Assembly (NCBI GenBank): GCA_037138755.1
Contig: JBAXHT010000001.1
Coordinates: 901,805-965,804, forward strand
Direction: 5' to 3'
From: Armatimonadota bacterium
GTDB taxonomy: Bacteria; Armatimonadota; Fimbriimonadia; Fimbriimonadales; Fimbriimonadaceae
Length of the DNA stretch: 64,000 nt
The translations under genes and the position numbers were made by a program. The first letter of the stretch is position 1; every line of letters starts with the position of its first letter. This document shows positions 3,709-38,774 of this stretch, in pieces. The notes under the pieces were generated by a model. The model searched no databases. It had not been told where the DNA came from and saw nothing but the letters and a program-made list of their open reading frames with translations.

Positions 3709-4176
3709 ATGAACTACTACGTTGTCGGGCCTGACGGGCAGAAGTACGGTCCCGGGGACGTCGTCATTCTTAATCAGTGGGCACAACAGGGTCGCGTCAC
3801 GCCGACAACCGTGCTCGAAGATTCTGCCACCGGAGCCCGATTCGCGGCGAGCCAACTACCAGGAATGGTCTTCGCGCCTGCGCCAAGCAACGATTTCAAC
3901 CAGCCGCCGAGCTACCAGCAGTACCCTCGCCAAGGCTATGGAGTCATGGATAACGGCGAAGGCGACTACCAGAAAGCCCTCATCTTCGGAATCATCGGAT
4001 TCATCTGTTGTCCGATCTTTATCAGCCCAATTGGCATCTACTTCGCTTCGCTCGCCCAGCGCAAAGGACATCCGAAGGGGCAAGGCATCATGATCTTTTG
4101 CATCGCGAGCCTGGTGGTCGGAATGGTTTTGGGAGCTATGGCAAACGTTGTCCTGTCAAACGCCTTCAAGCTGTAA
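3709..4176 (+). CDS. GYF_2 / DUF4190-type small membrane protein
   Basis: 155 residues. Residues 1-55 match the GYF_2 pattern (YYVVGPDGQKYGPGDVV, then WAQQGRVTPTT), a small domain thought to bind peptides. A proline/glutamine-rich linker leads to two hydrophobic segments at about 85-110 and 125-150, separated by a short basic loop (AQRKGHPKGQG), as in DUF4190. The protein should sit in the inner membrane with the GYF_2 domain on the cytoplasmic side. The role is unknown; proteins of this design are common and usually uncharacterised. Confidence 0.75.
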   Translation: MNYYVVGPDGQKYGPGDVVILNQWAQQGRVTPTTVLEDSATGARFAASQLPGMVFAPAPSNDFNQPPSYQQYPRQGYGVMDNGEGDYQKALIFGIIGFICCPIFISPIGIYFASLAQRKGHPKGQGIMIFCIASLVVGMVLGAMANVVLSNAFKL

Positions 4177-36464: not shown

Positions 36465-36493
36465 TTCACAATCCCGTAAAACTGCTGTATATC
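36465..36493 (+). promoter_or_regulatory. Candidate promoter of the G-tract gene
   Basis: TTCACA (36465-36470), a 17-nt spacer and TATATC (36488-36493), 10 nt before the ATG at 36504. The spacing is ideal and the hexamers moderate. Confidence 0.45.
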
Positions 36494-36503
36494 TATCAGT
36501 ACG

Positions 36504-38038
36504 ATGATCAAGTTCGATCAAATCGCCAGAGCCACCAAGAAGCTCTTGGCAATCGCCGGGGGGGGGGGGTAACACTCCTATCGTCAGCATTTGCTGGTCA
36601 TTACGTTGCTCAGGAAACTAGCGGCGTAACGTGCACCATGTCTCCCGGAGGTGTTGTCGGGCCATCCTTCGGCTATGGCACGTGCCTTATCTCTTCCGCT
36701 GGAGGTGGTGGCGGTTCCGGGACCATCGAAGGAACGGCCACTACCGTTTTCAACTGGGTTGGAGACTACGAGGGGGAACCGGCTCCAGAAAGTGTGGTCG
36801 TCGACGAGGTCAGTCTCGTCTACGCCAACGCCTCGGCTTTTCCGGGTTCCGTTTCCGCATCAGCCGATAATGGGCTTAACCCTTCGTTCTGCTACAACGA
36901 CCAAGGTTCAGGATCGACAACGAACCCTCCCGGTAACGGTGCCTGGGCGATCTCTTCTGGGGTCGCACCCCGAGTGGTAAGTGGGGGAGATCAAATCACC
37001 ATCACTTGCCCAGTTTCGGCTACTTGCGCTAGCAACAATGGGCCGTACAGTGTTTACCTAGCCTATCAAGTCCAGGTTTACCCTGTATCCGTGACCGTAA
37101 CCGGAACAAAGGTGGTAGACAACGAGCACAAAATACTCCCTGGACAATTGTGTAGTGCGGCGCTGAGTGTTGGGGGAGCAGACGTCTACGCAGAGGCTTG
37201 GAACTGGTCGGTGGCTGGCAAGAAATTCAAGGATTATGTTGCAACCGAAGATGTGGGGCAAGTCTGGAACGTGCCGCACGACGAATGGGAGCAACCGAAC
37301 GCTTCATGGCGTTGGAAAGTTGACGACGGGATCATGCCCGTGGAGTGCTCATCCGAGCTGCTCTTCAACGGTTATTCCATCGGCACGGCGACCGCAAGGC
37401 AAAATGTTAATCTTCTTAAAGTTTATTCTTCGCTTGTCCTAACCGAAGGAGACGGCCAAGCCGAGCTTGATGCGTCAACCGGTGACCTGACCCTCTACCC
37501 TTCCTCGTACTCGACTGCAAACTCCCGCTACGAACCTGCCATGTACATTGTGTTTGGAGCGATAACGCCAGCAGAGTTCGTCGAGAATGGTCAGGGGGGC
37601 AAGGTGAGCTATATTCAGCTTGCCAATATGCTCTACTCTAAGACGATTGGCGGGACGACAACGCCAATCATGACGACCAATTCAACTTGGATGCTAGATC
37701 AGAGGTTTCCATACGAAGGTCCGTATAATGCTGGTTCACAGCCTTACCAGACAAACGATCGCCCACGAGTCACTCTGGCGGGCAATATCGCCACGACTGC
37801 CCCCGTTGGCTCCAGCTTCGGTGCTAACTATCTGGACATCAAAGGCTGTACTTTGTTCCTAGCCCCGGGGAACGCTCGATACACACCGCTCCTAACTGCA
37901 CCTTGGCATTGGAATGCCAAAGCTACTCGTCAGTTATCAGACTGGTTTGTCGACAGCGGTGCCAGCATCACTAAGGGCGGCACAACTTCACTGATCAACC
38001 ACCCAGTGTGGTCAGCCTGCATAAAAGGAATCAACTAA
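36504..38038 (+). CDS. Secreted protein of unknown function, out of frame at a 12-G tract (phase-off as read)
   Basis: Reading from the ATG at 36504 gives MIKFDQIARATKKLLAIA, then four Gly codons from the G tract (36558-36569), then TAA. With 10 or 13 G residues the frame joins the long downstream frame and gives a convincing signal peptide (TLLSSAFA, then GHYVAQETS), then about 480 exported residues. The mature part is rich in Ser/Thr/Gly, has scattered cysteines, an Ig-like stretch (VYPVSVTVTGTKVV) and a C-terminal LSDWFVDSGASI segment. No family is recognised. A shorter reading could start at 36638 but would lack the signal. It is followed 1 nt later by a second exported protein. Alternative explanations are a dead gene or a sequencing error in the tract. 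Confidence 0.65.
36558..36569 (+). repeat. Homopolymeric G12 tract within the signal-peptide coding region
   Basis: Twelve consecutive G residues followed by TAA in the frame of the ATG at 36504. Mononucleotide tracts of this length are hot spots for slipped-strand length change. Adding one G or losing two restores the long frame. Confidence 0.9.
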
Positions 38039-38039
38039 A

Positions 38040-38774
38040 ATGAACGCTCCAAAAATATCATCAATTGCCACGACCCTGGCCCTTGGCGTCTGCCTCATCG
38101 CTGGAGCGATGGCAGTTCCTTATGCGACTCAACGGCACTTGACCGATCAAGAGCAACAGGAGAGAGCGAGGGAACTAGAAAAAGTCGGTGTCCTGATCCG
38201 CGACGGTGAATTGGATAAGGCTGAGCTTCTCCTCAACGGCTTTCCCGAACAATCCTTTTGGGGTGTAGCGGAACTTCGAGCCAACATCTGCATCCGCAGA
38301 GACGACCACTCGGGTGCGCTGGAGGCTCTTCGAACGATATTTGAACCTCATGAGAAGAAGAGTATCGGAGGTGCGGAAGAGCTTCGGACCTGGTACTACT
38401 TGCTCCTGTTGGAGCGGCGCGACACCAAAGATGCCCGCCGTGTTAGAGCTGATTTGTTGAGTTCGCCTCGTAGGAAACCTGGCGGCTCTGACGAATTCTT
38501 TGAGTTTGAGGGCCTCTCTCAAAACCCACTTGTAGCGGTGTACCTCTACATGGCATCCTTAGAGTTTGCAGCCGGTTACACCTATCGTGCCCGAGCCTAC
38601 ATCTCGACTGCGAAGAAATTAGACTCCGGTGTAAAGGTTGACGAAGTCTTAATCAGCCAGTTAAAGCGAGTCAGAACCACCCCGGAGGCCGAGCTACGTT
38701 ATGAAAAGAAGAGTTTGGGTTTCCCCATGCTCCCAAACTATGACCAACTTGTGAAAATGGTCTCGTTAAAGTAA
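38040..38774 (+). CDS. Membrane-anchored TPR-like protein, partner of the G-tract gene
   Basis: 244 residues. Residues about 8-28 form a signal anchor (ATTLALGVCLIAGAMAV). The rest is helical with repeat-like pairs (GELDKAELLLNGFPEQSFW; DDHSGALEALRTIFEP; YLYMASLEFAAGYTYRAR), suggesting tetratricopeptide repeats. The ATG lies 1 nt after the upstream stop, so the two are one operon. Function unknown. It may assist export or assembly of the upstream secreted protein, which is inference from position only. Confidence 0.65.
   Translation: MNAPKISSIATTLALGVCLIAGAMAVPYATQRHLTDQEQQERARELEKVGVLIRDGELDKAELLLNGFPEQSFWGVAELRANICIRRDDHSGALEALRTIFEPHEKKSIGGAEELRTWYYLLLLERRDTKDARRVRADLLSSPRRKPGGSDEFFEFEGLSQNPLVAVYLYMASLEFAAGYTYRARAYISTAKKLDSGVKVDEVLISQLKRVRTTPEAELRYEKKSLGFPMLPNYDQLVKMVSLK

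Follow-up and report, generated by a model that had tools for sequence, protein, structure and literature searches.

Repeat-based contingency genes have been studied mostly in host-associated pathogens and commensals. Neisseria surface proteins undergo translational phase variation through poly-G/C tracts and pentamers, such as the poly-G of pilC and the CTTCT of opa, and porA and fetA vary through poly-G/C tracts in their promoter spacers (PMC5320596). Poly-G contingency genes are also described in Campylobacter and Helicobacter (PMC6321876, PMC2823697); there, G/C homopolymers lie within or close to coding regions, often those of surface-related genes, with many tracts per genome and 29 repeat-associated coding regions in H. 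canadensis. The locus described here resembles pilC and opa in that the reading frame of a predicted exported protein would be shifted ON or OFF by a simple repeat among its codons, and in that paralogs each carry a repeat of their own, with tract lengths that differ among copies. It differs from them in that the protein family and phylum are unrelated, the bacteria are environmental rather than host-adapted, and the repeat unit changes from genus to genus among the homologs; switching is here deduced from sequence comparison.

The window (the whole stretch of 64,000 nt analysed, from a Fimbriimonadaceae genome of the phylum Armatimonadota) contains the following features at this locus:

36465 to 36493, + strand: candidate promoter, with TTCACA (36465-36470), a 17-nt spacer and TATATC (36488-36493), identified by consensus match only.
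36504 to 36572, + strand: start codon and first part of the signal peptide, stopped by TAA with 12 G (OFF), from reading of the sequence.
36558 to 36569, + strand: GGGGGGGGGGGG, the G12 tract read from the window sequence and proposed slippage switch, with 3n+1 G (10, 13) as ON, from sequence and dinucleotide shuffling.
36569 to 36595, + strand: remainder of the signal peptide, VTLLSSAFA, read in the +1 frame, from homolog comparison.
36596 to 38038, + strand: predicted mature secreted beta-sandwich protein, 480 codons and a stop; the 466-codon ATG frame begins inside it at 36638.
38040 to 38774, + strand: partner gene of 244 aa with an N-terminal signal or anchor and a weak TPR match, probably co-transcribed.

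The frame from ATG 36504, which lies 10 nt behind TATATC, reads MIKFDQIARATKKLLAIAGGGG and is terminated by TAA at 36570-36572, right after the G12 tract. Immediately 3' of the tract, the +1 frame relative to this ATG reads V-TLLSSAFA followed by GHYVAQETSG, and is open to 38038. The open frame across the tract comprises 527 aa, is stop-free inside, and contains the 466-codon ATG frame (36638-38038); the two frames are joined only by 3n+1 G. The fused halves would form a signal peptide that combines KK with a hydrophobic segment and a cleavage site at AFA, with the tract among the codons of its predicted hydrophobic core, in the 5' coding region, and with a repeat unit that is not a multiple of 3. 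The homologous frame downstream retains 488 open codons 3' of the tract (chance ~2e-9 for random sequence of the same composition). The initial annotation had read this ATG through 12 G into a stop, with 10 or 13 G restoring a frame that supplies a signal peptide ending AFA ahead of the 466-codon frame. All of this was confirmed, the signal peptide by TLLSSAFA-GHY and by homologs with the same mature start; the promoter it had proposed is indeed plausible, and the ORF at 38040 beside the secreted-protein gene is present.

The tract is the sole simple repeat above threshold in the window, where 0.01 G12 runs were expected by dinucleotide shuffling. It is also the longest of the G/C runs of at least 9 in the whole genome (3.27 Mb, 20 contigs), which number seven (9, 9, 9, 11, 11, 11 and 12). 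In contrast to the many tracts per genome of Campylobacter and Helicobacter, there are thus few such runs here, and MutS1 is present in the genus. A lack of mismatch repair as the cause of the long tract was rejected on this ground; since MutS1 is present, the tract need not be very mutable and the slippage rate may be modest. Two further G11 runs in this genome (L007:4001-4011 and L008:4001-4011), one intergenic behind a divergent gene and the other between converging gene ends, have no clear role.

The true frame was established by comparison with homologs. A single-protein search of genome contigs found no relative, and none was found on plasmids. Profile searches identified homologs in 22 of 85 genomes of the family and, with more sequences, in 27 of 113 genomes of the order, covering 17 genera. 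Four homologs of ~30% identity, three of them from the same genus, have one unbroken frame in which a signal peptide is followed by GHY, GHF, QY or GYY, corresponding to AFA-GHY in the window. Because these homologs keep an unbroken signal peptide before the GHY-like start, the assembled window copy is OFF, broken exactly at the tract. None of the four has a G run at the signal-peptide position.

The nearest parallel to the window gene is in another genus (G046), where two paralogs read MKNILI-[G9]-IFALFLLPLSAFAQHY. The G9 interrupts the core of the signal peptide, neither paralog is in frame, and each needs 3n+1 G. Their homology to the window protein has an hhalign probability of 97.4 and an E of 1.4e-11.

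For 25 homologs we examined a window of 260 nt spanning the start of the mature protein (6.5 kb in total), with one genome per species and mostly draft assemblies, in which homopolymer lengths may be wrong. A repeat was present in 13 of these 25 N-terminal windows, and the remaining 97.5 kb of the same loci contained 4 repeats, all homopolymers of 9. The corresponding Poisson probability (~4e-18) is overstated, because some homologs are paralogs, so that their windows are not fully independent, and because the window gene is among the 13. The repeat units are of 1, 2, 7 or 8 nt, none divisible by 3, and differ among lineages, comprising G9-G12, C10-C12, (CT)12, heptamers and an octamer. Homolog N-termini carry C10 in G040 and twice in G045, C12 in G120 and G030, and (CT)12 in G118. 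Heptamers occur there as CGCAGGT x6 in G102, CTCGCGG x3 with ACGGCTC x3 in G043, TGGCGGT x3 in G029 and GGTATGC x3 in G017, and the octamer TTGTCGGG x4 occurs in G120. A G9 lies in the mature part of the G037 homolog, and in G031 a C12 stands behind TTGACA, upstream of the gene. A locus of G118 is the same DNA as locus L139 of Armatimonadetes bacterium Uphvl-Ar1 (CP021423), which has been assigned to Fimbriimonadaceae (PMC5629041).

Fifteen coding repeats were read in detail; 12 were out of frame and 3 in frame. This is close to the two thirds OFF expected from random lengths and is uninformative on selection for ON. Open codons 3' of the repeat (423-736) are retained in 11 of the 12 out-of-frame copies, which would not be expected of long-dead genes. 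In G030, one homolog is cut by the C12 into two frames that match separate parts of the profile. The tract position had been called typical of contingency genes, and this is supported by the frame-shifting repeats of the homologs, most of them out of frame and otherwise intact. These repeats were found in other genera; the same-genus homologs in G003, G008 and G013 have no repeat at the N-terminal position, so the switch is not universal.

Some further observations concern split or repeat-bearing genes. Three homologs (L297, L302 and L327) are split over two frames with no repeat above threshold, for which decay, sequencing error or a shorter slippery site are possible explanations. Searching for ATGAAR with a G run behind it brought few additional coding tracts. 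A G13 (L047:3001-3013, G016:C15) lies early in a different, Gly-rich secreted-protein gene that is also out of frame, and is a candidate for the same kind of switch on a different protein.

We consider it highly likely, from the reading frames and the homologs, that this gene is phase-variable (a contingency gene) and that G12 is its slippage switch. G residues would be gained or lost by slipped-strand mispairing at replication. Lengths of 3n+1 G (10, 13) would join the signal-peptide halves and yield the full-length secreted beta-sandwich protein (ON), and other lengths, including the assembled 12, would end translation after 22 residues (OFF) and may also reduce expression of the adjoining partner gene. 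The window gene belongs to a group of Fimbriimonadaceae two-gene modules in which frame-shifting repeats of different kinds have arisen time and again at this position. Slippage in cells and how fast it occurs, together with the export and surface location of the protein and the joint control of the partner, are inferred; escape from phages, predators or neighbours is a guess at why such switching would be selected.

Sequencing or assembly error, in which case the true tract would be invariant at 10 or 13 G and the gene permanently on, is an unlikely explanation, though the least weak of the alternatives. Homopolymer length is a classic error type, and some G runs in related draft genomes sit at contig ends and look like read artefacts. 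However, error leaves unexplained both the frame-shifting heptamers, octamer and (CT)12 that homologs have at this position and the association of G runs with TTGACA described below. Uphvl-Ar1, which has both (CT)12 and a promoter spacer containing G12, was sequenced by long single-molecule reads (PMC5629041). Even at 10 or 13 G, the signal peptide would contain a tract prone to slippage.

It is very improbable that programmed or transcriptional slippage on G12 instead supplies a steady full-length fraction from the same DNA, with no genetic switching. RNA polymerase slippage is possible on long homopolymers, and slippage by polymerase or ribosome would account for out-of-frame copies remaining intact. 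However, the heptamer and octamer repeats of the homologs are poor sites for transcriptional slippage, and both in-frame and out-of-frame copies exist. Transcriptional slippage may nonetheless coexist with genetic switching. Less probable still is a decaying pseudogene, its frame broken once and on the way to loss. The assembled copy is out of frame, and one paralog (G045:C13) has an additional stop besides the frame break; against decay stand the long open frame after the tract, the intact partner gene and the similarly intact state of nearly all the out-of-frame homologs. Homopolymer error or gene decay thus explain the repeat pattern seen in the homolog sequences poorly. The reading of the tract as a non-coding promoter spacer (TTGGCA-N6-G12-TAACAC) whose length controls transcription was rejected as practically untenable, because G12 lies downstream of the start codon required by homology: poly-G-spacer promoters exist in the same family and the window flanks are similar (TTGGCA, 5/6, and TA directly after the run), but no start codon lies at the usual 6-11 nt behind G12, the first in-frame start, at 36638, would leave out the signal peptide as well as some of the mature end shared with homologs, and the -10 match is poor.

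The product of the switched gene was examined by family and structure searches. Neither the 466-aa frame nor seven homologs matched a family above the curated cut-off in Pfam or NCBIfam. AlphaFold with 25 homologs gave a confident all-beta multi-domain model (pLDDT 88.9, pTM 0.81), and was used in place of an earlier, poor model from 5 sequences. Fold searches with this model returned generic Ig/FnIII-like domain matches only (best Z ~7), including the adhesins or matrix proteins PrgB and RbmA. This resemblance fits a predicted extracellular protein and gives no function. Evidence for export consists of the signal peptide and conserved mature start in the sequence and the all-beta predicted structure, from which we infer a secreted or surface protein.

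A second gene lies directly 3' of nearly every homolog, with a product predicted to be secreted or anchored and often weakly TPR-like. These partners are alike in position, size and weak TPR matches, and are highly diverged and not one detectable sequence family; the window partner has a sequence match only to the partner in G003. Because nearly every homolog is directly followed by such a gene, co-regulation of the partner (38040-38774) with the secreted-protein gene is plausible from gene order.

A second arrangement of G runs was detected in the same family. Among 514 runs of at least 9 family-wide, 19 G runs lie 2-8 nt behind TTGACA, where 0.88 were expected. The reversed pattern gave 0 and the poly-C version gave 5, three of them one repeat. 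Most tabulated cases have a -10-like box starting at or just after the G run and an ATG 6-11 nt further on, with spacers of 15-23 nt in total, and the genes behind these promoters usually encode a protein with a signal peptide. Promoters of the form TTGACA-N-poly(G)-TANNNT-N6-ATG were observed before secreted-protein genes at L056-L085, L183, L192 and L204, and apparently give near-leaderless mRNAs, judging from the position of the ATG. As in porA and fetA, a homopolymer between -35 and -10 sets the spacing at these other secreted-protein loci of the family and at one in this genome. They differ from porA and fetA in that the family's poly-G promoters seem near-leaderless, and the window G12 is itself not a promoter spacer.

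The case in this genome is a G11 (G000:C1:400661-400671, minus strand) in an 18-nt spacer between TTGACA and TATGAT. This promoter (L006:3960-4045, minus strand; G000:C1:400661-400682) precedes a 536-aa protein with a signal peptide, and is a candidate second switch in this genome, of the promoter type. It sits just behind a gene resembling methionine aminopeptidase.

Together, the homolog repeats and the promoter spacers make it fairly probable that Fimbriimonadaceae run a repeat-based phase-variation programme on secreted proteins, in which a two-gene module has evolved its switch anew many times, through different repeats in the signal-peptide region, and a second gene set stands under poly-G spacers on near-leaderless mRNAs. 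The G12 in the signal peptide is very probably a random on/off switch in environmental bacteria, as far as its sequence context indicates. Mechanisms of this kind are already known; neither the phylum Armatimonadota nor this protein family seems to have been associated with one before. Our search of the open-access literature for Armatimonadetes or Armatimonadota with phase variation or contingency loci found no paper joining Armatimonadetes and phase variation, and nothing relevant among the papers listed for the wider terms (subscription papers and preprints were outside its scope), consistent with the initial annotation, which knew of no description in such organisms. If true, the presence of such genes across a whole family of soil and freshwater bacteria would mean that selection for randomly switched secreted proteins is not confined to life in animal hosts, and would offer a testable case for the selecting agent, whether phages, predators or neighbours. 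Since the assemblies show the majority of these genes in the OFF frame, they are likely to be annotated with truncated or wrong starts, of which annotators should be warned.

The TTGACA-poly-G pattern was also detected in other families of the phylum, and a stricter version in many phyla. A scan of genome contigs for the strict poly-G-spacer leaderless promoter pattern gave 90 loci (L086-L165), including Treponema, Phycisphaerales, Saccharibacteria, Lachnospiraceae and Omnitrophota, where a rough calculation assuming uniform random sequence predicts ~5. Many G runs of at least 9 in related genomes are intergenic or in repeats, with no obvious role. One G13 (L048:3001-3013, G016:C34) lies directly 5' of an apparent tRNA 3' end, with T arm, acceptor stem and CCA, and may be an assembly artefact. 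In G004:C40 (L052:358-369 and 4136-4146), the element ccggagccgctttgc-G11/12-actgcg is present in two copies, and the number of G residues differs between them within one genome.
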